Shown one piece after another: positions 33,898 through 54,614 of a DNA stretch of 64,000 nucleotides (positions are counted from its first letter, which is position 1; each line of letters starts with the position of its first letter). The DNA is taken from positions 321,212 through 385,211 of the forward strand of contig NZ_SOHL01000003.1 of assembly GCF_004403985.1 (NCBI RefSeq), given 5' to 3'. Source of the stretch: Cryobacterium gelidum. GTDB taxonomy: Bacteria; Actinomycetota; Actinomycetes; Actinomycetales; Microbacteriaceae. The translations under genes and the position numbers were made by a program. The notes below the pieces were generated by a model that searched no databases, had not been told where the DNA came from, and saw only the letters and a list, made by a program, of their open reading frames with translations.

Positions 33898-35274
33898 TCA
33901 GACCATGGTCAGTACCCGGGCGGGGTCGGCAAGGATGCTTCCGATGTCGGCGAGAAATCGGGAACCCTGCTCGCCGTCGACCAGGCGGTGGTCGAACGAC
34001 AGGCTGAGCGTGAGCACCTTGCGCAGCGCGACCTGCCCGCGATACTCCCACGGCTGCGAGCGGATGGCGCCCATCGCAAGAATTGCCGCCTCGCCCGGAT
34101 TGAGAATGGGCGTGCCGGCGTCGATGCCGAACACTCCGATATTGGTGATGGTGATCGTGCCCCCGGACAGCGCCGTCGGGGTGGTCGTGCCAGCCCGCGC
34201 CGCGGTCGTGAGCGTGGCGAGCGCGGCAGCGAGGCCGCGCAGGTCGAGCCGGTCGGCATCGACGATGTTCGGCACGAGCAGCCCGCGCGGGGTCGCCGCG
34301 GCGATGCCGAGATTGATGTGGTTGAACTGCACGATTTCGCCGGCCCGCTCATCCCACCGGGTGTTCACCGCGGGGGTGCGGCCCACTGCCAGGCAGAGGG
34401 CCTTGGCCACCACGGCGAGGATTCCGATTCCGGCGTCGGCAAAGCGCCGGTCCGCGCGCAGGGAATCGAGCAGCTCGACGGTCGGCGTGACGTCGATGGT
34501 GAGAAACTCGGTGACGTGCGGCGCCGTGAACGCGCTCTGCACCACGGCCGCCGCGGTGAGCTTGCGCAGGCTCTTGATCGGCGAGCGTGTCTCGCGCTCG
34601 GCGGCGCCGAGAGCCGCGCCCTGCTCCGGGAATGATTCCGGGGCCCCGTGCAGCGCGGGCGCCGGAACCGACTCCGTGACGTGGGTACGCACGTCATCCC
34701 GGGTGATCAGGCCATCCCGTCCGGTTCCGGTGACGGCAGCGAGGTCGATCCCGAGGTCACGGGCCAGGGAACGCACCGGCGGCGTCGAGCGCGGGCGTTC
34801 TCCGGCCGATGTCGCAGCAGGCGTCACGGCGACCACACGCTGGTCAGCCTGGTCGGCCGCCGGCACCGGGGTCCCGGCAGCACCCGGGCGGGCACGACGC
34901 TGGGGGTGGCCGCCACTCTCCACCGCGGGGCCGTAGCCGACCAGGTTGGCTTCGCGCTGCTCGGCCAGAGCTGGGCCCGACGCGGGGGTCGGAGCGGCGT
35001 CCTCCGCTGTTGGAGCAGAGTCGGGTTCAGCGGCGCCGCCGATGTCGAACGAGACGATGGGCTCGCCGACGTGCACGACCACACCGGCCGGCTGGTGCAG
35101 CACGCGCACGACTCCGGCGAACGGGCTCGGCAGCTCGACCACGGCCTTGGCCGTTTCGACGTCGGCGATGTGCTGGTTGAGCGTGACCTCATCGCCCGGC
35201 GCCACGAGCCAGGCGACGATCTCTGATTCGGTTAGCCCCTCCCCGAGGTCGGGCAGGTTGAAGACCTTGATCAT
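33898..35274 (-). CDS. bkdC: Branched-chain alpha-keto acid dehydrogenase E2 (dihydrolipoyl acyltransferase)
   Basis: This 458-residue E2 core has one lipoyl domain at the N-terminus (lipoyl Lys in DVETAKAVVELPSPFAG). A flexible Ala/Pro linker, an E1/E3-binding domain (VRSLARDLGIDLAAVTGTGRDGLITRDDV), and the catalytic domain follow, ending in SLSFDHRLVDGEQGSRFL. It transfers the acyl group from E1 to CoA. Its ATG overlaps the E1-beta stop by 4 bp. The pathway is assigned from the neighbouring Lrp-type regulator and leucine genes; a pyruvate complex is less likely. Confidence 0.92.
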   Translation of the reverse strand: MIKVFNLPDLGEGLTESEIVAWLVAPGDEVTLNQHIADVETAKAVVELPSPFAGVVRVLHQPAGVVVHVGEPIVSFDIGGAAEPDSAPTAEDAAPTPASGPALAEQREANLVGYGPAVESGGHPQRRARPGAAGTPVPAADQADQRVVAVTPAATSAGERPRSTPPVRSLARDLGIDLAAVTGTGRDGLITRDDVRTHVTESVPAPALHGAPESFPEQGAALGAAERETRSPIKSLRKLTAAAVVQSAFTAPHVTEFLTIDVTPTVELLDSLRADRRFADAGIGILAVVAKALCLAVGRTPAVNTRWDERAGEIVQFNHINLGIAAATPRGLLVPNIVDADRLDLRGLAAALATLTTAARAGTTTPTALSGGTITITNIGVFGIDAGTPILNPGEAAILAMGAIRSQPWEYRGQVALRKVLTLSLSFDHRLVDGEQGSRFLADIGSILADPARVLTMV

Positions 35275-36332
35275 CGTCGCCCCATAACCCGGTCGACACC
35301 GTCGAGAATGCGATCAAGATCGGGCAGGTGGTGGCTTTCCAGCTTGGCCGGCGGGTATGGCACGTCGAAGCCGGTGACCCGCACCGGCGCAGATTCCAGA
35401 AAGCTGAAGCAGCGTTCGGTGATGGTCGCGATGATCTCCCCACCGAGACCGCCCGACTGCGCCGCCTCGTGGGTCACAACGAGTCGCCCGGTTTTACGAA
35501 CGGATGCCTCCACCACCGCATAATCCACCGGTGACAGTGAGCGCAGGTCGATGACCTCGATCGAGATGCCCTCGTCGAAAGCGGCGAGGGCCGCGTCCCG
35601 CGCGGTCGTCACGAGCGCGCCATAGGCGAGGAGTGTGACATCCGTTCCCGGTCGCACGATGACGGCCCGCTCCATCACAAGCCCGAGCTCTGGCACGACC
35701 TCGCCCTTCACGTGGTAGCGGCGCTTGGGTTCGAAGTAGAGCACCGGGTCGTCGCTCGCGATGGCCTGCCGTATGAGGCTGTAGGCGTCTTGAGCGTTGG
35801 AGACGGCAATGACGCGCAGGCCGGAGGTGTGGGTGAAGTAAGCCTCCGGCGATTCGGAGTGGTGTTCGGCCGCGCCGATGCCGCCGCCGAACGGCACCCG
35901 AATGGTGATCGGCATGCGCACGGCCCCCTGGGTCCGGTAGTGAAATTTGGCGACCTGACTGACGATCTGGTCGAAAGCGGGAAAGATGAAGCCGTCGAAC
36001 TGGATCTCGCAGACCGGGCGGTAGCCGCGGTAGGCGAGGCCGACTGCGGTGCCGACGATCGCGGATTCCGCGAGCGGCGTGTCGATGACCCGGCGAGCAC
36101 CGAATTGCGCGAGCAGGTCACTCGTCACGCGGAAGACACCGCCGAGGGCGCCGATGTCCTCTCCGAGCAGCACGACCTTGGGGTCATCGAGCATGGCCTG
36201 GCGCAGGCCCTCGTTGATGGCCTTCGCCACCGTGAGGGTCTTCGTCTCACTCAGCGGGGTAGGTTTCGGCGCATTGAGACCGGGAACCGTCGACACGATT
36301 GCCGGGGTCATCAGGGTGGTCATGGTCGTCAC
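35271..36332 (-). CDS. bkdB: Branched-chain alpha-keto acid dehydrogenase E1 beta subunit
   Basis: This 353-residue transketolase-like beta subunit has LLGEDIGALGGVFRVTSDL, DTPLAESAIVGTAVGLAYRGYRPVCEIQF, and VRVPFGGGIGAAEHHSESPEAYF. With BkdA it oxidatively decarboxylates branched-chain 2-oxo acids using thiamine diphosphate. It overlaps the alpha gene stop by 4 bp and the E2 start by 4 bp. The first 30 residues, rich in Thr, are not part of the conserved fold. Confidence 0.92.
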   Translation of the reverse strand: MTTMTTLMTPAIVSTVPGLNAPKPTPLSETKTLTVAKAINEGLRQAMLDDPKVVLLGEDIGALGGVFRVTSDLLAQFGARRVIDTPLAESAIVGTAVGLAYRGYRPVCEIQFDGFIFPAFDQIVSQVAKFHYRTQGAVRMPITIRVPFGGGIGAAEHHSESPEAYFTHTSGLRVIAVSNAQDAYSLIRQAIASDDPVLYFEPKRRYHVKGEVVPELGLVMERAVIVRPGTDVTLLAYGALVTTARDAALAAFDEGISIEVIDLRSLSPVDYAVVEASVRKTGRLVVTHEAAQSGGLGGEIIATITERCFSFLESAPVRVTGFDVPYPPAKLESHHLPDLDRILDGVDRVMGRR

Positions 36333-37441
36333 GCCTTTCGGTTCTGTTCGGCACTATCGTGTTCCGTGCCAAAGCTCGTGAGGTAGCCGGCATAATCGCT
36401 GCGCTGGCGTTCGAGGGTTGCATTGGGGGTCGCGTAGACATGGTCGAAGACGCTGAGCGGCTCGGGGTCGGCCATGCCGATGCAGCCGGCGCGCAGTTCG
36501 GCGGCTGCGGCGTCGGCGAGGGCCGCCGTTTCCGCCTCGACCTCCGGGGTGATTTCACCGAGACTGGTCAGCAGCCGGTGCAGGCGCAGCACGGGGTCGC
36601 GCGTCTTCCACTCGGCGAGTTCGGCCGGATCGCGGTAGCGGGTGGGATCATCCGCTGTGGTGTGCGGCCCCATGCGGTAGGTGACGGCTTCGATGAAGGT
36701 GGGTCCGCCTCCGGTGCGGGCCCGGTCGAGCGCGATGCGGGTCGCCGCCAGCACCGCGATCACGTCGTTGCCGTCGATGCGGAGGCTCGGGATGCCGAAG
36801 CCCGGGGCACGATCGGCGATGTTGCGGTGCGCCTGCACTCCGACCGGCTCGGAGATGGCCCACTGGTTGTTCTGGCAGAAGAAGACCACCGGGGCCTGGA
36901 AGCTCGCCGCGAAGACCATGGCCTCGTGGACGTCGCCCTCGCTCGTGGCGCCGTCACCGAAGTAGGCGATGGCGACGGAGTCGACCTCGTCGCGCTGGGC
37001 GCCGAGCGCCCAGCCGGTGGCGTGCAGGGTCTGCGCGCCGATGATGATCGCCGGGGTCGCCATATTGACCGTGTACGGGTCCCAGCCCGACTGCGCGTTG
37101 CCGCGCCAGACCTTCACAATGTCGCTCACCTTGACACCGCGGCAGTACGCGACCGCGTTCTCGCGGTAGCTCGGAAAGATGAAGTCGTCGCTGCGCAGGG
37201 CGCGGGCCGAGCCGATCTGGGCAGCTTCCTGGCCGAGAAGCGGCGGCCACAAGCCCAGCTCGCCCTGGCGTTGCAGGGCGGTCGCCTCGGTGTCGATGCG
37301 ACGCACCACGACCATGTCCCGGTAGAGCGCGAGCAGGGCCGGCCCGTCGAGGTCGGCGACCCAGGGGTCGAAGTCGCCGCTGGGCATCCGTTCGCCATCG
37401 AGCGAGAGAAGCTGCACCAGCTGGGGGGAGAAATCGATCAT
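36329..37441 (-). CDS. bkdA: Branched-chain alpha-keto acid dehydrogenase E1 alpha subunit
   Basis: This 370-residue subunit has the thiamine-diphosphate motif GDG(X)nNN in YFGDGATSEGDVHEAMVFAASF...CQNNQWAIS. Other conserved blocks are PSYRENAVAYCRGV and TYRMGPHTTADDPTRYR, which is typical of branched-chain rather than pyruvate E1 alpha. It is the first gene of the bkdABC operon and is divergent from an Lrp/AsnC regulator. No E3 gene lies in the window. Confidence 0.93.
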   Translation of the reverse strand: MIDFSPQLVQLLSLDGERMPSGDFDPWVADLDGPALLALYRDMVVVRRIDTEATALQRQGELGLWPPLLGQEAAQIGSARALRSDDFIFPSYRENAVAYCRGVKVSDIVKVWRGNAQSGWDPYTVNMATPAIIIGAQTLHATGWALGAQRDEVDSVAIAYFGDGATSEGDVHEAMVFAASFQAPVVFFCQNNQWAISEPVGVQAHRNIADRAPGFGIPSLRIDGNDVIAVLAATRIALDRARTGGGPTFIEAVTYRMGPHTTADDPTRYRDPAELAEWKTRDPVLRLHRLLTSLGEITPEVEAETAALADAAAAELRAGCIGMADPEPLSVFDHVYATPNATLERQRSDYAGYLTSFGTEHDSAEQNRKA

Positions 37442-37516
37442 GGTTCGCTCCGAGCGTCATTGCTAAAGTTGACGTGAGCCTATGTCGACCGGACAGAGAG
37501 CACAACTGCCGTCAAA

Positions 37517-37539
37517 AATAGTGAGCAGAGTGCCCTATT
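37517..37539. promoter_or_regulatory. Inverted repeat AATAG-N13-CTATT between bkdA and the Lrp gene
   Basis: The two 5-bp arms (37517-37521 and 37535-37539) lie in the divergent spacer, 34 bp before the regulator's start. They could be part of an Lrp-type operator. The arms are short, so chance occurrence is possible. Confidence 0.35.
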
Positions 37540-37572
37540 CAGACTCGCCAGACCATGTTAATGTTTTGCACT

Positions 37573-38037
37573 ATGTACAGCCTTGATAAGACCGACACCA
37601 AGCTCCTCCAAGCGCTCTCGGACGACCCGCGCAGCACCTTCGTCGCGCTCGCCGACACCCTGGGTCTCTCCCGCAATACCGTGCAGGCCCGCATGAAACG
37701 ATTGGAAGATTCCGGCGCCTTTCTCGGCTTTGATCGCCGCATCAATCCGGCCGCCCTCGGCTACCCCCTGACCGCGTTCATCGAGGTGCACGTGCAGCAG
37801 AAACGGCTCGCCCAGATCGTGCTCGATCTCGCCCTGATCCCCGAGATCGTGCAGGCACACGGCATGAGCGGGCAGACCGATCTGCTCGTGCGGGTGGTTT
37901 GCACGGACGCCGCCGATCTGTTTCGCATCGACGGCACAATCCTCGCCTGCGATGGTGTGGAACGCACCGAGACCTCGCTCGCGATGGGCGAGGTCATTCC
38001 CTATCGGCTCACTCCGCTGCTCGACCGACGCGGGTAG
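37573..38037 (+). CDS. Lrp/AsnC family regulator, probable BkdR
   Basis: This 154-residue regulator starts MYSLDKTDTKLLQALSDDP. The helix-turn-helix is in LADTLGLSRNTVQARMKRLEDSG, and the C-terminal RAM (ligand) domain includes IVQAHGMSGQTDLLVRV. Divergence from bkdABC suggests it controls branched-chain keto-acid oxidation in response to an amino acid. ATGs at 37555, 37561 and 37573 are in frame; I choose 37573 because it starts at the usual N-terminus. No ribosome site is clear at any of them. Confidence 0.9.
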   Translation: MYSLDKTDTKLLQALSDDPRSTFVALADTLGLSRNTVQARMKRLEDSGAFLGFDRRINPAALGYPLTAFIEVHVQQKRLAQIVLDLALIPEIVQAHGMSGQTDLLVRVVCTDAADLFRIDGTILACDGVERTETSLAMGEVIPYRLTPLLDRRG

Positions 38038-38231: not shown

Positions 38232-38717
38232 GTGAGTTTCCTGCGATTGGCCACGCTTATTCGGCACGGCGCGCGCATCGCCGAACCGGCCGCGATCGCT
38301 CCGCCCCTGTTCGACGGCGCGCAGGTCTTCGGCGGCAGCGTGCAGGTGCGCTTCATCAACGCCGGCGGCTGCAACGACTGCGCGCTCGAGGTGGCAGCCG
38401 CGTTCGGCCCGGTCTACGACGTGGAACGCTACGGCGTGCGCCTGGTTCCCTCACCGCGACACGCCGACGTGCTGCTCATCGTCGGCAGCGTGACCCGCAA
38501 TATGGCCCAGCCTCTGCTGCGCACCATCGAGGCCACCCCCACGCCCCGGTTCGTGATCGCGGTCGGTGATTGCGCCCTGCACGGCGGCGCCTTCCGCGAT
38601 GGTTACGGCGTCATCGGGCCCGTTTCCGATTTCGTGCACGTGGATATCGAGGTGCCGGGCAGCCCGCCAGAGCCGACCGATATTGTGCGAGCCTTGCGCC
38701 GAATGACCGGCCGATGA
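38232..38717 (+). CDS. NuoB/HyfI-like iron-sulfur small subunit (one cluster Cys missing)
   Basis: This 161-residue protein is the small subunit of a complex-I/hydrogenase-4-like enzyme. The motif GGCNDCALEV gives C47 and C50, and VGDC gives C114. The final ligand, normally Cys in PGCPP, is Ser144 (VPGSPPEPTDI; codon AGC), so only three of the four usual [4Fe-4S] ligands remain. The start is a GTG at 38232 after GGGGG. It is the first gene of a six-gene overlapping operon (next gene overlaps by ATGA) and stands next to the palindromic operator. It is comparable in position to M. tuberculosis Rv0082. Confidence 0.85.
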   Translation: MSFLRLATLIRHGARIAEPAAIAPPLFDGAQVFGGSVQVRFINAGGCNDCALEVAAAFGPVYDVERYGVRLVPSPRHADVLLIVGSVTRNMAQPLLRTIEATPTPRFVIAVGDCALHGGAFRDGYGVIGPVSDFVHVDIEVPGSPPEPTDIVRALRRMTGR

Positions 38718-40786
38718 CCGGAATGGAAGCAGGATTGCTCCTGCAAACCGAAATCGAAGCGGGACTGATCCCACAAACCGGACTGGAAGCAGGATTGCTG
38801 CTGCAACTCGGGCTCGGCGCGCTGGCCGTGCTGACCGCCCTGACAGCGGCACCGTTCCTGCGGTCGCGGGCTGTCGGCATCCTCTGCACCCTCATCGCAG
38901 TGACCGGCTTTCTGACCGGCCTCGTGGCCATGCTCGGCGGCACCGGTGGCCTGCGCATTTCGATCGCCCTGCCCATGGACCCACTGCTGCTGGCCCCCGA
39001 CCGCCTCGGCGGCCTGTTCATGCTCATCGTCTCGGGTGTCGGCATTCTCGTGTCGCTCTACTCGATGAGTTCCACCCATGGACCCGACGCGAGCCGCACC
39101 GCCTGGGTCGCCATGCCGGTGTTCCTGGTTGGCATGCAGCTCGTGCCGGCCGCGACGGATTCGGTCTCGTTTCTGCTGGCCTTGGAAATCATGACCCTGG
39201 GCTCCACCGTGCTGCTGCTGGCCGACCATGCCAGCCGCGCCACTGTCGCCTCGGCGGGAATCTGGTACTCGGCCATGTCGCAGCTGAGTTTCTTCTTCAT
39301 TCTGGCTGGCTTCGCCGTGCTCGCCGCCGCCTCGGGCGGAACGAGCTTCAGCACCCCGCAAGCGATCGAACCCGGGCCTGCGAACGTGGCGTTCGTGCTG
39401 TTCCTGCTCGGCTTCGGTGGCAAGGCCGAACTGGTGCCGCTGCACGTCTGGGTGCCACGGGTGCTCCCCGAAGCGCCCAGCCACGTTTCAGCCGCGATGA
39501 GTGGCGCCATGGTCAAGATCGGTGTCTACGGCGGCCTGCTGGTGTGCGTTCGGCTGCTGCCCGACGGGCCCGCCTGGTGGGGCATCGCCATCATGGTGGT
39601 CGGTGGCGCTTCCGCTCTCTATGGCATTCTGCAGGCTTCCGTGTCGAGCGATCTCAAGGTGCTGCTCGCCTACTCGACGACCGAAAACATGGGCCTGGTC
39701 TTTCTCGGGCTCGGCGCCAGCCTGCTGCTGCGCGGCTACGACGCCACAGCGGCAGCGGATGCCGCGCTCGTGGCCGCCCTGCTCCTCGCCGTCAGCCACG
39801 CCGCGTTCAAATCGACGCTGTTCCTGGGCGCCGGCGCCATCATCCACGCTACCGGGGAACGCAACCTCGACCGGCTCGGCGGGCTCGGTGCCCGCATGCC
39901 CGTCACCGCCGCCGCGTTCGGCGTGGCCAGCCTCGGCGCCGCCGCCATCCCGATCACGAGCGGTTTCGTCGCCGAGTGGATGCTGCTGCAGTCGCTCATT
40001 CACGGCGGTCGTCTGGACGGGGCGGTCGTCTCGGTCACAGCATCCGTTGCCATGCCCCTCGCGGTCGCCGTGATCGCCCTCACCGCCGGCCTCGCGCTGC
40101 TCACCTTCGTCAAGGCCTACGGCATCGCGTTTCTAGCCCGACCGCGTAGCGCCGAAGCAGCAAAGGCGCGCGAGGTGCCGCCGCTCATGCAGCTCTCGCT
40201 TGCACTCGGCGCCCTCTTCGTGCTCGCCCTCGGGCTGCTCCCCGGGCCGATTGCCGCGCTCGTCGGGCACACCGTCAGCTCGAATCCGAGCGCCGCCGTG
40301 CAGTCCATCGGTCTCGGCGGCGTCTCGCTGCCGGGTATCGGGGCGGTGCTCGACCCGATCATGCTCGTCGTGCTGTCGGCGCTGGTCGCCATCCCGGTGA
40401 TCGTCTCGATCATCGTGTCCGCCCGCGGACATCCGCATCGCACGGTCGACCTGCCCTGGGGCGGCGGCGGCTCCCGGGCGAGGCCGCGCATGCAGTACAC
40501 CGCGACCTCCTACGCCGAACCGCTCGTGCGGGTCTTCGACGACGTGCTCAAGCCGTCGCGTGACGTGCAGGTCACCCACGTGGCCGAGTCCCGCTATCTG
40601 GTGGAACGGGTGCGGGTGGAACAGCGCGTCTCGGACGTCTTTGAAACCCGGCTGTATCGGCCGGTACTCAACCTGTTCCAACGCTACGGAATCGTCGTGC
40701 GGCACGTCGCCAACGGCAGCATCCACCGCTACCTGTCCTATTCCTTCGTTGCTCTACTGATCGTGCTGATCGTGGTCTCACTATGA
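38714..40786 (+). CDS. Hydrogenase-4 subunit B-like proton-pumping antiporter-type subunit
   Basis: This 690-residue polytopic protein belongs to the NuoL/HyfB proton-translocating subunits. Conserved features are FGGKAELVPLHVWVPRVLPEAPSHVSA (with membrane Lys and Glu) and LLAYSTTENMGLVFLGLG. The C-terminal soluble part (TYAEPL...-type MQYTATSYAEPLVRVFDDVLKPS) is typical of HyfB. The first 33 residues include three imperfect 30-bp repeats (EAGLLLQ type), absent from the known fold. The ATG overlaps the small-subunit stop (ATGA). It is the largest membrane subunit of the complex. Confidence 0.87.
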   Translation: MTGMEAGLLLQTEIEAGLIPQTGLEAGLLLQLGLGALAVLTALTAAPFLRSRAVGILCTLIAVTGFLTGLVAMLGGTGGLRISIALPMDPLLLAPDRLGGLFMLIVSGVGILVSLYSMSSTHGPDASRTAWVAMPVFLVGMQLVPAATDSVSFLLALEIMTLGSTVLLLADHASRATVASAGIWYSAMSQLSFFFILAGFAVLAAASGGTSFSTPQAIEPGPANVAFVLFLLGFGGKAELVPLHVWVPRVLPEAPSHVSAAMSGAMVKIGVYGGLLVCVRLLPDGPAWWGIAIMVVGGASALYGILQASVSSDLKVLLAYSTTENMGLVFLGLGASLLLRGYDATAAADAALVAALLLAVSHAAFKSTLFLGAGAIIHATGERNLDRLGGLGARMPVTAAAFGVASLGAAAIPITSGFVAEWMLLQSLIHGGRLDGAVVSVTASVAMPLAVAVIALTAGLALLTFVKAYGIAFLARPRSAEAAKAREVPPLMQLSLALGALFVLALGLLPGPIAALVGHTVSSNPSAAVQSIGLGGVSLPGIGAVLDPIMLVVLSALVAIPVIVSIIVSARGHPHRTVDLPWGGGGSRARPRMQYTATSYAEPLVRVFDDVLKPSRDVQVTHVAESRYLVERVRVEQRVSDVFETRLYRPVLNLFQRYGIVVRHVANGSIHRYLSYSFVALLIVLIVVSL
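38723..38812. repeat. Three imperfect 30-bp repeats at the 5' end of the HyfB-like gene
   Basis: Units at 38723-38752, 38753-38782 and 38783-38812 encode EAGLLLQTEI, EAGLIPQTGL and EAGLLLQLGL after the first residue. They keep the reading frame and precede the first membrane helix. Confidence 0.85.
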
Positions 40787-41736
40787 ACGCCGTCATCAGC
40801 GCCATCATCATCGCCGTCGTGCAGGTCGTTCTGTTCGTCTTCCTCGCCCCACTGCTGATCGGGGTGATCCGCCAGGTTCGGGCCACGATCGAAGGTCGCG
40901 CCGGTGCGGGAATCTGGCAGCCCTGGCGGGACCTGCGCAAGCTGCTCGCGAAAGACCCGGTGCGCGCCGCCGAGAGCAGCTGGATGCTGCGGGCCGGGCC
41001 GGTCGCCCTGACGGTCTCGAGCCTGTTGCTGTGCGTCTTGCTTCCACTCGTGGGTACCATCTCGTTCCTGACCATTCCCAGCGACCTGTTCGTCGTTGTC
41101 TCGGTCATGCTGATCGGCGTGGTCGCACTGGCCCTGGTCGGCCTCGACGGCGGTACGGCGTTTGGCGGCATGGGCTCCAGCCGGCACATGACGGTCGCCG
41201 CGCTCGTCGAACCGACGCTGCTGCTCTCGGTCTACGCACTGTCGATCCCGGCCGGAACCAGCACCATCTCTGCCATCGTCGAAACCCGCCTGCTCTCCCC
41301 CGAGATCATCATCTCGCCGGTCAGCGTGCTGGCCCTCGTAGCGTTGTCGATCGCGATCATGGCCGAAACGGGTCGTCTGCCGGTCGATAATCCGGGTACC
41401 CACCTCGAAGTGACCATGCTGCACGAGGCGATGACCCTCGAAGCGAGCGGGCGCGACCTGGCCTGGCTCGAGGTCGGCTCCTGGCTGAAGCTGGCCGCCC
41501 TGCTCGGCCTGGTCAGCAACCTGGCCGTGCCGTGGGGCGTCGTCACGGATTTCAGCGCCCTCGGCCTGGCTGTCGGCGTCGTCAGCATTGCCGTGAAGGT
41601 ACTCGTGCTCGGCGTGATGCTGAGCATCGGCGAGATCTTCCTGGCCAAGGTGCGCCTGTTCCAGGTGCCCGAGCTGCTCGCGGGTTCTTTTGCCCTCGCC
41701 TTCCTCGCCGTCACCGCCTCCTACCTGGTCGCCTGA
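40783..41736 (+). CDS. HyfC/HycD (NuoH-like) membrane subunit
   Basis: This 317-residue protein has about eight helices and the NuoH-type interface motifs: RATIEGRAGAGIWQPWRDLRKLLAKD near the N-terminus, and ETGRLPVDNPGTHLEVTMLHEAMTLEASGRDLAWLE in the middle. NuoH-like subunits link the peripheral arm to the membrane arm. The start overlaps the HyfB-like stop by 4 bp. It corresponds to hycD in the mycobacterial cluster. Confidence 0.9.
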   Translation: MNAVISAIIIAVVQVVLFVFLAPLLIGVIRQVRATIEGRAGAGIWQPWRDLRKLLAKDPVRAAESSWMLRAGPVALTVSSLLLCVLLPLVGTISFLTIPSDLFVVVSVMLIGVVALALVGLDGGTAFGGMGSSRHMTVAALVEPTLLLSVYALSIPAGTSTISAIVETRLLSPEIIISPVSVLALVALSIAIMAETGRLPVDNPGTHLEVTMLHEAMTLEASGRDLAWLEVGSWLKLAALLGLVSNLAVPWGVVTDFSALGLAVGVVSIAVKVLVLGVMLSIGEIFLAKVRLFQVPELLAGSFALAFLAVTASYLVA

Positions 41737-41748
41737 GGAGCATCCGTC

Positions 41749-42408
41749 ATGTTTGAAACTTTCTATCCCCAACTGATCGGCCTGTGCACCGGGGCCCTGC
41801 TGCTGACGAGCGCGCTGATGGTCTGGCGGCACTCCCTGCTCGCGTCGATCCGGCTACTCGCGCTGCAGGGCATCGCCCTCGCCGCTCTCGTCGCCGTGAT
41901 CGGCATCGCCGAGGGCGAATCGGAGCTGGTGCTCGTGTCGCTCCTCATCCTTTCGGTAAAGGGCATCGGCCTGCCGTGGGTGCTTGCGCACCAATCCAAA
42001 GCGTCGATCAAGCAGATTCAGGAATCGCCCCGGCTCAACCCGACGGCCGCGCTGCTCGCCGTTACCCTGCTGACCATCCTCAGCTACGTCGTCGTCAGCC
42101 GCGTCTTCGGCCTCGGCGACAATGAGACCGGCCATGCCGCCCCGATCGGCCTCGCCATGGTGCTGATCGGCTTTCTCCTGTTGATCAGCCGGCGCCGCGC
42201 CCGCTCGCAGCTCATCGGTTTTCTGCTGCTCGACAACGGCATTGCCACCATCGCCTTCCTGACCAGCGGCGGCGTGCCGGTTCTGCTCGAGTTCGCCGTC
42301 TCCCTCGACGTTTTGCTGGTCGTGCTCATTTTGCACGTGTTCACCGGCCGTATGCGCACCAAGTTCGGCGGCACCTCCGTCGATCAGCTCAGAGAGTTGC
42401 ACGATTGA
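41749..42408 (+). CDS. HyfE-like membrane subunit
   Basis: This 219-residue protein has about six hydrophobic segments. It carries the HyfE/NuoK-like helix RAAGAL-type core (SLLILSVKGIGLPWVLAHQSKASIKQIQES) and the C-terminal LLVVLILHVFTGRMRTKFGGTSVDQLREL, which is typical of HyfE. It likely contributes to the proton path. Start ATG 41749 follows a GAGGAG ribosome site. Its stop overlaps the next ATG by 1 bp (TGATG). Confidence 0.85.
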   Translation: MFETFYPQLIGLCTGALLLTSALMVWRHSLLASIRLLALQGIALAALVAVIGIAEGESELVLVSLLILSVKGIGLPWVLAHQSKASIKQIQESPRLNPTAALLAVTLLTILSYVVVSRVFGLGDNETGHAAPIGLAMVLIGFLLLISRRRARSQLIGFLLLDNGIATIAFLTSGGVPVLLEFAVSLDVLLVVLILHVFTGRMRTKFGGTSVDQLRELHD

Positions 42409-43856
42409 TGTCCTTGGTTCTGTGGATTCCCCTCGTCGGCCCGCTCGCTTTCGCCGGCCTCGGCCTGCTGCTGCGCAACTCGACGCTCCACCGCTTCGTC
42501 GGCGTGGCCGCGTCGAGCGCCGTGCTCGTTTCTGGGCTGCTCCTGGTCAGCGCGGCGCTCGACGGCACCGTGCCGTCGAGTGGCGGCGGCATGCTGCGCG
42601 CCGATGCGCTCTCGGCCTACATGCTCGGCGTCGTCGGGGTGGTCGGGCTCATCTCCACCTGGGGCGGTCTCAGCCCCGCTACGCCCCACCCCACCGAGGA
42701 TGCCGCCGGCTACGAGGCGCTCATCGCCCTGTTCCTCGCCGCGATGTCACTCGCCGTACTCGCCGACAGCATCGGCCTGATGTGGGCCGCGGTCGAAGCA
42801 ACGACCATCGCGACCGCGTTCCTGGTCGGTCACCACCGCACCCGCCGATCGCTCGAAGCCGCCTGGAAGTACGTCATCCTCGGTTCGGTCGGAGTGGCCA
42901 TCGCGCTGCTGGGTATCGTGCTCATCTACGCCGCCTCGGTCGGCACCGACACCCCGACCCTGTCCTGGCTGCTGCTGAGCCGGTCCGACCTCGGCCTCGA
43001 CCCGGCGCTCATCACCGCCGGCGGCGCCCTCGCCGTGCTCGGTTTCGCCACCAAAGCGGGCCTCGCCCCGATGCACAGCTGGCTGCCGGACGCCCACAGC
43101 CAAGCCCCGGCGCCGGTCTCCGGCCTCATGTCCGGCGTACTGCTCTCGGTCGCTCTCTACGCCATCCTGCGCATCCAGTCGATCACCAACCTCGTGATCG
43201 GCCCGGAGTTTCTGCGCATCATGCTCAGCATCGGCGGCCTGCTCTCCCTGCTCGTGGCGGCCTCCCTGCTCATCCGCCAACGCGACTATAAGCGGATGCT
43301 CGCCTACTCCAGCATCGAACACATGGGTCTGATGGCGATCGGTGTCGCCATCGGACCGGCCGCGCTGCCCTCGGTACTGCTGTACATTCTGGGCCACGGC
43401 CTGATCAAGGCGACCCTGTTCGTGATCTCCGGACGCATCCTCTCGGTCGAAGGCACCCCGGTGATCTCGGACGTGCGCGCCCTGCTGATACGACGGCCTG
43501 GCCTCGCCGTACCGTGGCTCATCGCCATGGCCGCCATCGTCGGTTTTCCGCCGTTCAGCATCTTCTTCTCCGAAATCGGCATCTTCATGGCCGGCTGGTC
43601 GGTGGGCCTCGGCGGCGTCGTCGCAGCGGCCCTCATGCTGCTGCTCGTGATCTTCGCCGCGTTCACCCGACTGACCGTGCAGATGACCATCGGCGCTCCC
43701 CCGGAGGGCGTTGCGTTCACGCCCGACTACTCGGCCCACGGGCCACGCCTGCCGATCATTCTGGCCCTGGCGACGACGGCGACGGTCGCGTTCGTCGCCG
43801 AACCGGTCGGCACCCTGCTGCTGCAGGCCACAGCTGTTCTGGGAGGTACCAACTGA
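42408..43856 (+). CDS. HyfF (NuoN/NuoM-like) membrane subunit
   Basis: This 482-residue antiporter-like subunit has the conserved LWAAVEATTIATAFLVGHHRTRRSLEAAWKYVILGSVG (Glu and Lys in membrane helices). It also has GFATKAGLAPMHSWLPDAHSQAPAPVSGLMSG and YKRMLAYSSIEHMGLMAIGV. It is a second proton-pumping module next to HyfB. It overlaps its neighbours by 1 bp on both sides (TGATG). Comparable to hycQ of the mycobacterial locus. Confidence 0.9.
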   Translation: MSLVLWIPLVGPLAFAGLGLLLRNSTLHRFVGVAASSAVLVSGLLLVSAALDGTVPSSGGGMLRADALSAYMLGVVGVVGLISTWGGLSPATPHPTEDAAGYEALIALFLAAMSLAVLADSIGLMWAAVEATTIATAFLVGHHRTRRSLEAAWKYVILGSVGVAIALLGIVLIYAASVGTDTPTLSWLLLSRSDLGLDPALITAGGALAVLGFATKAGLAPMHSWLPDAHSQAPAPVSGLMSGVLLSVALYAILRIQSITNLVIGPEFLRIMLSIGGLLSLLVAASLLIRQRDYKRMLAYSSIEHMGLMAIGVAIGPAALPSVLLYILGHGLIKATLFVISGRILSVEGTPVISDVRALLIRRPGLAVPWLIAMAAIVGFPPFSIFFSEIGIFMAGWSVGLGGVVAAALMLLLVIFAAFTRLTVQMTIGAPPEGVAFTPDYSAHGPRLPIILALATTATVAFVAEPVGTLLLQATAVLGGTN

Positions 43857-45388
43857 TGACTGACGAGCAAACGCCCCACGACCCGGCCGCCGACACGAAC
43901 CTGGCTGCTGGCGGGGCCGAACTGCGCCACCTCGACCGCTCCAGACTAACGAGGGAGGCCGGCGCACTGCTGGATGCCGGCAGCCGCCTGGCCCTGGTCG
44001 CCTGCCACGAGGACGATGACGACTTTCGCATCGTCTATTCCTTCGTCGGAGTCACCCCGTCGCAACGCGCCGACCTCTCGGTCAGGGTGCCGCGGGACGA
44101 TGCCTGGATCCCCAGCCTCGCCGAAATCTCCCTGTCGGCCGGTAACTTCGAGCGCGAACTACGCGACTTGTATGGCGTCGTTCCCCGCAACCACCCGCAG
44201 CCGCACCGCCTGGTGCGCCACGGCCACTGGCCGCGCGGCTGGTACCCGATGCTGCGTGCCAACGCCGTCGTGCCCGAGTTCGAGCCCGACGTCGAATCGT
44301 TTCCGTTCGTGCCCGTGGAAGGCCCCGGCGTCTACGAGATTGCAGTCGGTCCCATCCACGCCGGCATCATCGAGCCGGGTCACTTTCGATTCTCGGTCGT
44401 CGGCGAGACCATCGTGCGCATGGAAGCCCGCCAGTGGTATCTTCACCGCGGCGTCGAGAAGGTGTTCGAGGGCAAGACCGCCGCCGCGGGAGTGCTTTTG
44501 GCCGAGCAGATCAGCGGTGACACCGCCGTCGGCCACTCCCTCGCCTACGTCATGGCCGTCGAGCAGGCCGCCGGTATCGAGGTCTCCGAGCCCGACCGGC
44601 TGCTGCGCGCCCTGCTACTGGAGCTCGAACGGTTGTACAACCACGTGACCGACCTCGGTTCCCTCGCCAATGACGTGGGCTTCGGCATCATCGACGCCCA
44701 TGCGCAGGGTTTGCGCGAGCAACTGCTGCGCATCAACAAATCGGTCACCGGGCATCGCCTGCTGCGCGGCGCCCTCAGCGTCGGCGGCACGCGGGTGAAC
44801 GCACTCCCCGATGCGGCCGAGCTCACCAGCGTGAGCGCGGCCATGGCCGAACTGGTCGGCATCACGCTTGGCCACGCCATCGTGCGCGGTCGTTTCACCG
44901 GCACTGCCCGGCTCTCCAACGGGCACGCGACCACGATCGGAACCCTCGGCTACGTCGCCCGCGCGTCCGGCATCGCTACGGATGCTCGCACCCAGCATCC
45001 GTTCGTCAACCTCGGTGAGGTCTTCCACGTCGTCACCGAGGAGGGTGGCGATGTCCTAGCCCGGTACACCGTGCGCGCCCGCGAGGTGGAAGTCTCCACC
45101 GCCCTCGCCCTGGACCTGTTGCGGCGATTGCACGGCCACACCGGAACGGCCTTCATCGTGAATCCGACGTCGGCCGGCACCGGGCTGGGCCTGGTGGAGG
45201 CGTGGCGCGGGACAGTCACCCACCGGGTCGAACTCGCCGCAGACGGCACGCTCGCCCGGGTAAAAATCGTCGACCCGTCGTTCTTCAACTGGCCCGCCGT
45301 ACCGCACGCCCTGTCGGAGACGATCGTTCCTGACTTTCCGCTGGCCAACAAGAGCTTCAACCTCTCCTACGCCGGAAACGACCTGTAG
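43856..45388 (+). CDS. HyfG/HycE-like large subunit lacking the [NiFe] cysteines
   Basis: This 510-residue protein fuses a NuoC-like domain (residues 31-130; FERELRDLYGVVPRNHPQPHRLVRH) to a NuoD/HycE-like domain. The N-terminal nickel motif RxCGxC is replaced by SGDT (S220 and T223 in QISGDTAVGHS). The C-terminal DPCxxC is replaced by DPSFFN (S475, N478). All four active-site cysteines are therefore gone and it cannot be a normal hydrogenase. Quinone-site or electron-transfer use, as in NuoD or Ehr-type proteins, is possible. There are no hydrogenase maturation or formate dehydrogenase genes nearby. Confidence 0.88.
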   Translation: MTDEQTPHDPAADTNLAAGGAELRHLDRSRLTREAGALLDAGSRLALVACHEDDDDFRIVYSFVGVTPSQRADLSVRVPRDDAWIPSLAEISLSAGNFERELRDLYGVVPRNHPQPHRLVRHGHWPRGWYPMLRANAVVPEFEPDVESFPFVPVEGPGVYEIAVGPIHAGIIEPGHFRFSVVGETIVRMEARQWYLHRGVEKVFEGKTAAAGVLLAEQISGDTAVGHSLAYVMAVEQAAGIEVSEPDRLLRALLLELERLYNHVTDLGSLANDVGFGIIDAHAQGLREQLLRINKSVTGHRLLRGALSVGGTRVNALPDAAELTSVSAAMAELVGITLGHAIVRGRFTGTARLSNGHATTIGTLGYVARASGIATDARTQHPFVNLGEVFHVVTEEGGDVLARYTVRAREVEVSTALALDLLRRLHGHTGTAFIVNPTSAGTGLGLVEAWRGTVTHRVELAADGTLARVKIVDPSFFNWPAVPHALSETIVPDFPLANKSFNLSYAGNDL

Positions 45389-45490: not shown

Positions 45491-45826
45491 CTATTCCTTC
45501 TCGAGGTGCTGGAGCATGGCGTGCGAGTCGGTCAGGTTGGCCAGCACCATGCGCTTGGCCGCCGCCAGCAACTCGACCGCGCTCGGGTCTCGCAGGGCAT
45601 AGAAGATGGAGTTGCCCTCGCGGCGGGTCGCGACCACGCCAGCGCGGCGCAGCACGGCGAGCTGCTGTGAGAGGTTGGACAGCTCGCAGCCGAGCCCTTC
45701 AGCCAGCGAACCCACCGAACGTTCCCCGGCAATGAGCTGCTCCAAAACCTGCACGCGCAATGGATGCCCGAGCGACTTGAACAACTCGGATTTCAATTGC
45801 GCGGCGGGGAGACCAGAAGACATCAC
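45491..45826 (-). CDS. ArsR-family regulator (Rv0081-like)
   Basis: This 111-residue winged-helix repressor has ELFKSLGHPLRVQVLEQL, LGCELSNLSQQLAVLRRAGVVATRREGNSIFYAL, with the recognition helix LSNLSQQLAVLR. No metal-binding Cys cluster (CxCxxC) is present, so it is not a classic metal sensor. It closely resembles M. tuberculosis Rv0081, also adjacent to a hyc-like cluster. Two starts, GTG 45826 and ATG 45823, are adjacent; with TATACT at 45838-45833 the transcript may start at the GTG (leaderless). It converges with the large-subunit gene. Confidence 0.88.
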   Translation of the reverse strand: MMSSGLPAAQLKSELFKSLGHPLRVQVLEQLIAGERSVGSLAEGLGCELSNLSQQLAVLRRAGVVATRREGNSIFYALRDPSAVELLAAAKRMVLANLTDSHAMLQHLEKE

Positions 45827-51680: not shown

Positions 51681-54614
51681 TCAGGTCGTGAGTACACCCA
51701 GCACGTCTTCGAGAGCGAGCAAAAAATGGTCGGCGCTGGCGACGCTGAGGCAGAGCGGCGGCTTGATCTTGAGTACGTTCTTGAAGTCGCCGGTGGGCTG
51801 CACGATGCAGCCGCGCAGCAACAGTTCGTCGCAGATCATGGCGGCGACGGCGGTGGCCGGCGTGAAGTCCTCCCGATCACTCACCAGTTCGACGCCGAGG
51901 TAGAGCCCCGTACCGTAGACCGCACCGACCAGATCGAATCGTTCGCCGAGACGCTCGAGTCCCCGCTTCAGGTGCCGACCAACCGCCTCGGCATTTTGCT
52001 GCAGGCCTTCGTCGCGCATGATGTCGAGCACGGTGAGGCCGATGCGGCAGCTGAGCGGACTGCCACCCGCGGAGGAGAAGAAGGGTCCGTCATCGGCGAA
52101 ACGTTCGGCAATGTCCCGGCGGGTGATCACCGCCCCGAGCGGATGCCCGTTGCCCATCGCCTTGGCGATGGTGATGATGTCGGGAACCACGTTTTGCTGT
52201 TCGGTGCCCCAGAAGTATTGGCCGAGGCGCCCGTAGCTCACCTGCACCTCGTCGGCGATGCAGAGCCCGCCGCGCGAGCGCACTTTCTCGTAGACTCCGG
52301 CCAGGTAGCCATCGGGCAGCAGCACACCGCCGGCGTTGCCGAACACCGGTTCGGCGATGAACGCGGCGACCGTGCGTCCGTCTCCGGCGAGGGTCTGCAG
52401 GTCGCCGTCGAGATCGCTCAGGTAGTGCGGCGCCGATTGCAGGCCCCGGTATTTGCCGCGCACGGCGTTCGGTGCCTCGACGAGATGCACCCAGTCCGGC
52501 CTCGTTTCCAGCGCCCGCGGGTTGTCGGCGACCGAGGATGAGATGGCATCCGCTGCCATCGACCAGCCGTGATACGCCTCCCGCACCGCAAGCACGGTGT
52601 CATGGCCGGTATGGGTCAGGGCCAGGCGCAGGGCCAGGTCGACGGCCTCGGTGCCGCTGTTGACCAGGAATACGGTGTCGAGGGGGTCGGGAGCGAGTTC
52701 GGCGAGGCGCTCGGTGAACCGCACGAGCTCTTCGTAGTGAAAACGGGAGTTGGTGTTGAGCAGCGACCACTGGCTGCGTGCCGCCTCGGCAATGCGCGGG
52801 TGACCGTGTCCGACGGTCGTGACGTTGTTGATCATGTCGACGTAGCTCTGGCCGTGAGTGTCGATGAGGTGGTGTTTCCAGCCGCGTTCAATCTGCGGCG
52901 GTGCCGCGTAATAGTGTTCCTGCACGCGCGCGAAGACCGTGTCGCGGCGCTGCAACAGGGCGGCTGGGTCGGCGAGCGGGCGCATGGTCGCCAGCCCGAG
53001 CAGGGCAGAGGGGTCGGGGCAGACCCGTTGCCACAGCACAGCGCTCGACGGTGCGACGAAAAACGGGGGGCGGATGCCGCGGAGCCGGCCGGTCTGCACC
53101 GTCACCCGGGCGATGGCCGTGCCGTGCCGTGCTCCGATGGAGCGCGCCCCCACGGCGCCGGAGATCGTGCCGAGAGCGGTTCCGGCTCGAATGGCCTGGC
53201 CGTCGAGGGCGGCAGCGTCGACGCCGGTCAACCAGAGGTCGTAGTTGCCGCCTTCCAGCCGAACCGTATCGGCATCGACCACCACCACGGTCGCGTCGAT
53301 CGGCGCCATGACCGGGGTTTCGGCAGACAGATACACCTCGACGCCGAGAGCCAGGGTGATCGACTCGTCGGCCGTGTCTCGGCGGGTCTGCGACAGCCGG
53401 TACTCGCCGTAACGGGTGACGGCGTGGCCGAGATGGGCTGCGGCATCCGCTGCCACCCGCTCGTCAATGCCGGGCTCGAGCCAGCTTCCGGCATCGAACA
53501 CGGCGCTCGTGACCGACAGGTCGATGATGGCCGCCGGCTCCAGTGGGCCGAACAGGGGGTGGTTGCCGGCCACGACCGGCGCGCCCTCGTCGGTCAACGC
53601 CAAGCGAATGAGGGCTTCGATCTGCGCTGCGGTTTGGTCGGCCGCCGTGTCGAAGGCGAGCCACTCCCTGGCACGGTTGGCATCGGCGTAGTCGTTGTCA
53701 CCGTCGAGGTGCACCTGCTGTTCGCCGCTCACGACGAGTACCGCCGTGCGCAGCACGATCAGGGGCCACAGGGCGGTGAGTTCGGCGTCGGTGAGCGGCA
53801 CCTGCGCGGCGAAAGCCTCGATCGTGTCGAGAATGGCGAGTGGATGCTGCGGGCTGCGGTAGAGCACGCACGCACATGTCGCGGCAAGCTCGGCGATGAT
53901 CCAGCCGTGGGCCACATCGCCGAAGTCGATCACGCCGGTGATGGTCTCGGCGACGTCCTCCCGGCTCACCACGTTGTCGTCGGTCAGGTCACCGTGAATG
54001 GTCTGCACCCGCAGTTCGGCGGCGACCCGTGCGAGCTGCTGCCGGGCGGCGTCGGTGACCCTGCGCAGTCGCTCGCGGCGGGCATCGTCGTCGACGGCGG
54101 GAAGGAGGGCGTCGATGACCTCGCCGCCGCGCCGCAGGTCCCACTGCAGAAACCGGTCGGCTCCCGGGTGCTCGAAGTCGGCGAGGCCGCGAACAATGCG
54201 ACCGGCCACGTCACCGAGCGAGCAGATCTGCTCGTTCGAGAGGCGCACGGAGTCGGTCAGCGGATGCCCGTCGACATAGGTCAGCAGGCGCAGGTCCAGG
54301 TTTTGTCCGTCGACGGTGACGCGCTGAATCGCACGGCCGTCGATCCCGACAACGACTGCGGGAACGTCGAGTCCAGCGCTGTCGAGGTGCGCCAGGGCAG
54401 CGTTTTGAGCCTCGAGCTCGACCGTGGCGATGGCCGGGTTGGAGACTTTGAGAACGACGGTGGCGGTATCCGTCTCGATGCGAAAGTTGCGGTCTTGGTG
54501 GCTGCCGAGTTCCCTGACGGTGCCCGTGACGCCAAACCGATCGCGGGCAAGTTGGGTCGCCTGCGCGAGCGTCAGGCGTGGGCGCGGCAGGTGGAAGGGG
54601 CTGTGCTTGGTCAT
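51681..54614 (-). CDS. Three-domain protein: APH-like kinase, degenerate M23-like, class III aminotransferase
   Basis: This 977-residue cytosolic protein joins three parts. Residues 20-340 are an aminoglycoside phosphotransferase/choline-kinase-like domain (IHGDLTDDNVV with H207 and D209, then GVIDFGDVAHGW). Residues about 395-540 are M23-peptidase-like (LALGVEVYLSAETPVMAPIDATVVVVD) but lack the zinc His and Asp. Residues about 560-977 are a class III PLP aminotransferase; the PLP Lys is K818 in IITIAKAMGNGHPLGA, with SGTEAVDLALRLA upstream. Related actinobacterial proteins have the same architecture. A phospho-amine lyase or aminotransferase role is suggested, but the substrate is unknown. 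Confidence 0.88.
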   Translation of the reverse strand: MTKHSPFHLPRPRLTLAQATQLARDRFGVTGTVRELGSHQDRNFRIETDTATVVLKVSNPAIATVELEAQNAALAHLDSAGLDVPAVVVGIDGRAIQRVTVDGQNLDLRLLTYVDGHPLTDSVRLSNEQICSLGDVAGRIVRGLADFEHPGADRFLQWDLRRGGEVIDALLPAVDDDARRERLRRVTDAARQQLARVAAELRVQTIHGDLTDDNVVSREDVAETITGVIDFGDVAHGWIIAELAATCACVLYRSPQHPLAILDTIEAFAAQVPLTDAELTALWPLIVLRTAVLVVSGEQQVHLDGDNDYADANRAREWLAFDTAADQTAAQIEALIRLALTDEGAPVVAGNHPLFGPLEPAAIIDLSVTSAVFDAGSWLEPGIDERVAADAAAHLGHAVTRYGEYRLSQTRRDTADESITLALGVEVYLSAETPVMAPIDATVVVVDADTVRLEGGNYDLWLTGVDAAALDGQAIRAGTALGTISGAVGARSIGARHGTAIARVTVQTGRLRGIRPPFFVAPSSAVLWQRVCPDPSALLGLATMRPLADPAALLQRRDTVFARVQEHYYAAPPQIERGWKHHLIDTHGQSYVDMINNVTTVGHGHPRIAEAARSQWSLLNTNSRFHYEELVRFTERLAELAPDPLDTVFLVNSGTEAVDLALRLALTHTGHDTVLAVREAYHGWSMAADAISSSVADNPRALETRPDWVHLVEAPNAVRGKYRGLQSAPHYLSDLDGDLQTLAGDGRTVAAFIAEPVFGNAGGVLLPDGYLAGVYEKVRSRGGLCIADEVQVSYGRLGQYFWGTEQQNVVPDIITIAKAMGNGHPLGAVITRRDIAERFADDGPFFSSAGGSPLSCRIGLTVLDIMRDEGLQQNAEAVGRHLKRGLERLGERFDLVGAVYGTGLYLGVELVSDREDFTPATAVAAMICDELLLRGCIVQPTGDFKNVLKIKPPLCLSVASADHFLLALEDVLGVLTT

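Follow-up and report, generated by a model that had tools for sequence, protein, structure and literature searches.

Cryobacterium gelidum possesses an energy-converting hydrogenase related (Ehr) complex in which substitution has removed all four ligands of the [NiFe] site and, at the single iron-sulfur cluster, one of four. Such a complex may work as a redox-independent translocator of protons or other cations, its hydrogenase-like arm acting as a non-catalytic gate, a reading drawn from sequence comparison and given a probability of about 0.4. The gene content, the missing ligands, their disappearance from the cluster site more than once in different lineages, the retained membrane residues, and purifying selection were observed.

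Gene content and distribution of the operon

The operon was found in a 64,000-nucleotide stretch of contig NZ_SOHL01000003.1 (the window, to which all coordinates refer), in a genome of 3.47 Mb on 30 contigs that is complete by estimate. Open reading frame analysis gave six packed genes on the plus strand (38232-45388) in the order HyfI-B-C-E-F-G; four of the five gene junctions overlap by one or a few bases, the remaining one being a gap of 12 bases. The first gene (38232..38717, +; GTG start) encodes a small subunit of 161 amino acids, similar to HyfI, HycG, and NuoB and matching the Pfam family Oxidored_q6. It is followed by the genes for a HyfB-like antiporter-type subunit (38714..40786, +; 690 amino acids; PF00361, Proton_antipo_M), a HyfC/HycD/NuoH-like subunit (40783..41736, +; 317 amino acids; PF00146, NADHdh), a HyfE-like membrane subunit (41749..42408, +; 219 amino acids), a HyfF-like antiporter-type subunit (42408..43856, +; 482 amino acids; PF00361, Proton_antipo_M), and a HyfG/HycE/NuoCD-like large subunit (43856..45388, +; 510 amino acids; Complex1_30kDa, Complex1_49kDa, and NiFeSe_Hases). 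The HyfE-like protein gave no match in a Pfam search and was assigned from its position in the operon and from homologues at the equivalent place in related operons. The large subunit starts at the ATG at 43856, from which its residues are numbered; the codon at 43853 is CTG. An initial annotation of the window had proposed this six-gene set with two antiporter-type subunits, and the coordinates and Pfam matches bear it out.

The nearest named homologous proteins are from Cryobacterium (86-91% identity). The large subunit was present in 24 of 36 other genomes of the genus, and in 12 of 398 genomes (4 of 85 genera) of the family sample. Large-subunit matches fell into two pieces in two of the genomes, G026 and G030 (L026/L055; L054 in G026 and L053 in G030); in L053, the C-terminal motif is out of frame, through either an assembly error or a genuine frameshift. 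A phage or mobile origin was rejected, as a scan of viral contigs returned no relative. Scans of the locus found no sigma-70-like promoter, and terminators at chance level.

Nickel and quinone sites of the large subunit

None of the four [NiFe] cysteines is present in the large subunit. In the alignment with HycE, the CGIC nickel motif is replaced by SGDT (S220, T223; 44513..44524, +) and the CYSC motif by SYAG (S504, G507; 45365..45376, +). The initial annotation had located the first pair correctly and had wrongly placed the second at S475/N478, which begin and end an SFFN stretch some 30 residues ahead of the true motif. Its claim that nickel ligands are lacking stands despite this misassignment, the only cysteine of the large subunit being residue 50, within the NuoC-like part. 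Further, no second large subunit occurs in the genome, as the one PF00346 match and the one PF00374 match both correspond to the large-subunit gene of the operon (these searches were positive in 11 and 5 of 14 control genomes, respectively). The search for maturation genes covered HypD only (PF01924); it gave no match in the whole genome and was positive in 4 of the 14 control genomes. An active hydrogenase was therefore rejected, as had been anticipated, since nickel ligands, another large subunit, and HypD are all absent.

Loss of the nickel ligands is itself already known for Ehr complexes. Cysteine occurred at the four nickel positions in none of the 121 near homologues among the matches listed, and 108 of the 111 operon loci had no cysteine there, the other three (L060, L116, and L133) having all four. 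Sequence comparison indicates that a conserved polar set occupies the former nickel site. Within it, all 121 near homologues among the matches listed have Asp at D222, and N498, K499, S500, N502, S504, Y505, and D509 are nearly invariant across Microbacteriaceae, other Actinobacteria, Nitrospira, and rows of the candidate phyla radiation (CPR) type. The protein ends four residues past the former second nickel motif and has no HycE-like C-terminal tail. In the structure model of the large subunit, pLDDT falls below 50 at 147-197 and 477-511 (in a numbering that is one too high); because the second of these regions spans the former second nickel motif, the pocket geometry was not taken from the model. 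A quinone reductase of the complex I type was also rejected, as the quinone-binding His and Tyr of NuoD are both absent: in all 82 locus rows, Ile stands at the position of NuoCD H224 and Gly at that of Y273.

Iron-sulfur site of the small subunit

The small subunit has three cysteines in total and none to spare. Alignment assigns Cys47 (TGC) and Cys50 (TGC) to the CxxC of the proximal cluster (38370..38381, +) and Cys114 (38571..38573, +) to its third ligand, and places Ser144 (AGC; 38661..38663, +) at the position of the fourth, with PGSPP in place of PGCPP. The equivalent residue is Cys in the HycG, MbhJ, and NuoK/NuoB chains. The initial annotation missed this replacement. Judged from the alignment, the only iron-sulfur site of the complex lacks one of its four ligands.

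This state was followed through 121 small-subunit sequences, namely that of the window and 120 listed homologues. All four cysteines occur in 45 of these 121 rows and not in the other 76, among the matches listed. At positions 47/50/114/144, the rows read CCCC (45), CCCS (39), CCCN (15), CCCG (5), CCCA (4), CCCQ (3), GCAS (2), and ACAS (2), with one each of CCCT, CCCR, GCSS, CCCD, GCAD, and ACCN. Position 144 alone is thus occupied by C (45), S (44), N (16), G (5), A (4), Q (3), D (2), T (1), or R (1). Six of the 121 rows listed retain Cys50 alone of the four ligands, and all 26 operons read from the genus Cryobacterium retain the three ligand cysteines. In a tree of 119 rows built with the ligand columns left out, a branch with support 99 separates 43 CCCC rows from a clade of 76 rows with eroded ligands, which still holds two CCCC rows (P0149 and P0174). 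On this tree, position 144 changes 22 times (131 of the 161 columns need fewer changes, the median being 7), whereas the flanking Gly143, Pro145, and Pro146 do not change at all; Cys47 changes five times, Cys114 twice, and Cys50 never. The non-ligand position 147 is as variable as position 144 (21 changes). As far as the sequences indicate, drift at position 144 next to unchanging residues is not the pattern of a newly selected ligand.

Cys50 (38379-38381) is kept in 121 of 121 near homologues and in 119 of 120 CPR-type homologues listed. Its persistence where the other cluster ligands are all gone is explained neither by a redox-free complex nor by a three-cysteine cluster.

Repeated loss of the cluster ligands

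The wider comparison comprised 111 operon loci, of which 95 had a readable small subunit; a few species are represented by two loci each, and L058 and L063 share a contig. The ligand states of the 95 loci were CCCC (56), CCCS (19), CCCN (9), TCDD (3), CCCT (2), and ACAS (2), with GCAS, PCCC, DCDD, and SEGD found once each. A second clade thus carries T/S/D-Cys-Asp-Asp at the ligand positions of the small subunit. The 120 listed nearest homologues of the small subunit of L121, a member of this clade, read TCDD (114), SCDD (4), DCDD (1), or TEDD (1), so that the TCDD state is a family trait and the cluster-free state is conserved there. Named members of the clade include Daviesbacteria, Magasanikbacteria, and other Patescibacteria, besides metagenome-assembled genomes labelled Thermoleophilia and Actinobacteria. 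The Thr-Cys-Asp-Asp that stands in place of the ligands is invariant in L121, L122, L134, and L140, and might bind another metal.

In a large-subunit tree of 108 rows, built without the ligand columns after ten duplicate or partial loci had been removed, the 29 Microbacteriaceae rows group together (support 99), apart from a clade of seven TCDD/DCDD rows (support 100), for three of which no small subunit could be read. Forcing both groups into one clade cost 190 log-likelihood units, and a single joint origin of the two cluster-loss groups was rejected (p-AU 4.5e-53; 50 hand-picked rows of the 108). The SEGD locus (L137) may or may not belong to the CPR-type clade (p-AU 0.057). L101 (Rokubacteria, PCCC) was dropped as a case of ligand loss, as it has five cysteines and a shifted cysteine pair; this adjacent pair (49, 50) in L101 (3397-) is reminiscent of the tandem cysteines of NuoB in complex I. 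The large subunits of CPR Ehr complexes are monophyletic and devoid of metal-binding cysteines, according to the consulted parts of Jaffe et al. 2020 (PMC7304191), in which the small subunit does not come up. Loss of the small-subunit cluster was not reported in the portions of the literature covered, but may have been mentioned elsewhere.

Relation to known complexes and alternative redox functions

Ehr complexes were reportedly described by Marreiros et al. in 2013. Like these, the window complex combines subunits of the group 4 hydrogenase type with antiporter-type membrane subunits and has none of the four nickel cysteines; this group-4-like gene set without nickel ligands is common to Ehr complexes, including Rv0082-Rv0087 of the tuberculosis complex and CPR Ehr. 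The initial annotation noted a mycobacterial likeness; the mycobacterial relatives L069, L070, L073, and L105 display the same gene order and the SGDT/SYAGND motifs. However, the mycobacterial and most other relatives keep the four small-subunit cysteines, which the clade of the window and the CPR-type clade do not. Available sections of earlier papers describe Ehr complexes without nickel ligands (PMC6349859, PMC6728331, PMC7304191), and in one of them coupling of electron transfer to ion translocation is suspected (PMC6349859).

Formate hydrogenlyase-1 of Escherichia coli (Hyc, 7z0s) is the best solved relative of both peripheral subunits, in sequence and in fold. Compared with Hyc, the window complex lacks the [NiFe] site, a full proximal cluster, the HycB/HycF-like iron-sulfur subunits, and the C-terminal tail of the large subunit, and it has two antiporter-type subunits instead of one. 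Two CxxC nickel motifs, HypD, and a four-cysteine proximal site, as expected for a group 4 [NiFe] hydrogenase (Hyc/Hyf), were thus not found. Respiratory complex I is matched in NuoB, NuoCD, NuoH, two antiporter-type subunits, and the key TM5/TM7/TM12 residues; yet, the NADH module, NuoI, and the quinone His and Tyr are missing, and the site of cluster N2 is incomplete.

The sulfane-sulfur reductase MBS of Pyrococcus furiosus is likewise without a nickel site and has three proximal-cluster cysteines, as stated in the part of PMC7684303 that was available. By analogy, Cys47, Cys50, and Cys114 may hold a three-cysteine cluster whose open iron is the catalytic site of a redox enzyme fed by a soluble donor. 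Such a cluster is the strongest rival reading for the window's own protein: three cysteines suffice for a [3Fe-4S] or a three-cysteine [4Fe-4S] cluster, and MBS, which belongs to this superfamily and has no intact nickel site, uses the open iron of its three-cysteine proximal [4Fe-4S] cluster (same excerpt of PMC7684303). Moreover, the three ligand cysteines are kept in 68 of the 76 non-CCCC rows listed, as in the 26 Cryobacterium operons. Nevertheless, a redox enzyme of this kind is considered less likely than the redox-independent translocator. According to the same excerpt, MBS lacks the first CxxC cysteine, whereas the window lacks the fourth ligand; MBS keeps two of the four nickel-site cysteines and has MbsN with two further clusters; and the signature of MBS/MBX (second CxxC cysteine, GxC, and PGCPP cysteine) is broken in the window by the absence of the PGCPP cysteine. 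Neither a ferredoxin-accepting two-cluster subunit of the MBS/MBX type nor an MbsN-like ferredoxin-type subunit occurs among the six operon proteins. A catalytic site would also be expected to hold its surroundings, whereas position 144 has taken eight replacing residues in its 22 changes, and sister lineages have lost Cys47 and Cys114 too.

Alternatively, an ordinary electron-transferring Ehr pump might persist in Microbacteriaceae around a [4Fe-4S] cluster with Ser, Asn, Asp, or water, or a residue of another subunit, as fourth ligand. Ser, Asn, and Asp are able to ligate iron-sulfur clusters, and most other Ehr members have all four cysteines (56 of 95 loci). This is deemed improbable, given that Gly, Ala, Gln, and Arg also occur at position 144, that some relatives have a single ligand cysteine, that the TCDD clade exists, and that no donor or acceptor gene was found in the flanks examined.

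A redox-independent translocator is favoured over both, as there is no nickel site, no NuoD-type quinone residue, and no accessory iron-sulfur subunit, and the last cluster is incomplete; relatives with a single ligand cysteine and the same membrane parts point in the same direction. The initial annotation had proposed a proton-pumping complex with an electron donor and an acceptor yet to be named. This interpretation is partly supported; a retained donor and acceptor are not supported, since the sole redox site left lacks a ligand in the window and across nearly the whole clade around it, and three of the four in some relatives.

Membrane arm and selection

As proton-path positions we take the textbook set of the TM5 Glu, the TM7 and TM8 Lys, the HxxxK pair, the TM12 Glu, and NuoH E157, D213, E216, E220, and E228. 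These were mapped separately, after a list of conserved charged residues that had been prefiltered for conservation. The HyfB-like subunit retains E158, K237, K268, K315, H362, K366, and E421, and the HyfF-like subunit E130, K216, K295, H330, K334, and E389, with Ser247 at the position of the TM8 lysine. In the NuoH-like subunit, E143, D202, E209, and E220 (corresponding to NuoH E157, D213, E220, and E228) are retained; E216 of NuoH is not kept, G205 being found there.

The comparison covered 29 rows of Microbacteriaceae, 28 of other Actinobacteria, 18 others of the four-cysteine type (one of them PCCC), and 6-8 of the CPR type. In both antiporter-type subunits, the TM5 Glu, the TM7 Lys, and the HxxxK pair were not substituted in any row with a letter there, and the same held for the four NuoH-like residues, clusterless groups included. 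For each subunit, a single row deviates at the broken-helix lysine (K295/K315). The TM12 Glu is replaced by Lys in 3 of 8 (HyfF) and 2 of 7 (HyfB) CPR-type rows and is missing in three further HyfF rows, departures that are a minority overall. The TM8 lysine (NuoM K265) is replaced by Ser, Ala, Asn, or Thr in HyfF of all four groups, and in HyfB of the 29 Microbacteriaceae rows it is K (20), N (8), or S (1). Hence, the gap at the TM8 lysine and the loss of NuoH E216 leave a proton path that is not the full complex I set, which lowers confidence in the redox-free explanation. These gaps are common to the four-cysteine relatives and are therefore not a consequence of cluster loss. Even HycC of E. 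coli has no TM7 lysine.

Purifying selection acts on each of the six genes, with dN/dS values of 0.04-0.16 (11 Cryobacterium operons listed, of 15 comparisons made). This argues against a decaying remnant of an Ehr complex en route to loss, as do the intact frames with overlapping starts, the invariant key membrane residues, the conserved linked ArsR regulator described below, and the separate clade in which the cluster-free state is conserved. Decay would account for the patchy presence in genus and family and for the two frame-split copies of the same genus (G026 and G030), but is very unlikely.

Neighbouring genes and possible partners

Downstream of the operon lies a gene for an ArsR-family regulator (45491..45826, -; PF12840/PF01022). 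A homologue occurs at 60 of the 111 operon loci, the window included, and at 59 of these it lies no more than 3 kb away from the operon. The link spans loci of Actinobacteria, Rokubacteria, and Chloroflexi; the gene is downstream and convergent in Cryobacterium, and at many other loci it precedes the operon and points the same way. Rv0081, a regulator of the tuberculosis complex, holds the equivalent place, according to the consulted part of PMC6728331. Upstream, bkd genes (E1 alpha, E1 beta, and E2; 33898-38037), divergent from a gene for an Lrp/AsnC regulator, and a gene for a biotin-dependent carboxylase were found. The bkd and Lrp genes adjoin the operon stably within Cryobacterium, which could suggest that the complex transfers electrons in branched-chain amino acid breakdown, with dehydrogenases encoded by the bkd and methylcrotonyl-CoA genes as donors. 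This role is most doubtful, as the neighbours differ outside the genus (Lrp homologues occur at 27 loci, all from Cryobacterium), ArsR being the shared neighbour, and as a complete redox site for receiving electrons is absent. Farther away in the window, 51681-54614 (-) encodes a protein of 977 amino acids with an APH-type phosphotransferase domain and a class III aminotransferase.

No redox partner gene common to the operon flanks examined was found. The flanks of the CPR-type operons shared no redox gene either, L122 being the only one of those sampled with a DUF362/ferredoxin-type neighbour, and Pfam searches of the six operon proteins revealed no ferredoxin-like or accessory iron-sulfur subunit. 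A cytoplasmic partner may be encoded elsewhere. PF00361 matches four proteins in the genome: two belong to the operon, and the other two lie as a pair on a different contig and probably form an Mrp antiporter; with this pair present, the need for the operon as a translocator is not obvious.

Proposed mode of action and implications

Electron transfer requires a donor, a path, and an acceptor. If the complex is a redox-independent translocator, no redox-active cluster would be assembled, and the two antiporter-type subunits would exchange protons, perhaps with Na+ or K+, either along a gradient already present or by antiport of the Mrp kind. The arm of large and small subunits may bind a ligand or a proton in its polar pocket (D222, S500, N502, S504, D509, and neighbours) and may signal, by conformation or by charge, through the NuoH-like subunit, replacing the former redox input. 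The adjacent ArsR-type repressor would switch the operon on under stress. By analogy, this redox-free working mode would be common to Mrp cation/proton antiporters, in which, however, the NuoH-like and hydrogenase-like subunits are both absent (consulted part of PMC7419157).

Tentatively, the complex I superfamily machine may have given up redox chemistry on two or more occasions, once in Microbacteriaceae and once in the CPR-type clade, its arm and pump still coupled and being driven or gated otherwise. The same may then apply to the wider SGDT/SYAGND Ehr family: electron transfer may never have been required there, and the one cluster may serve as a sensor or persist as a structural relic. 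It has long been asked how chemistry in the complex I arm can drive pumping in the distant membrane. If the proposal is true, a natural relative with the arm, the NuoH-like link, and antiporter-type subunits but without redox centres would allow coupling to be viewed apart from electron transfer, in a system open to study in harmless soil and glacier bacteria, and would provide a working hypothesis for the widespread and unexplained Ehr complexes.
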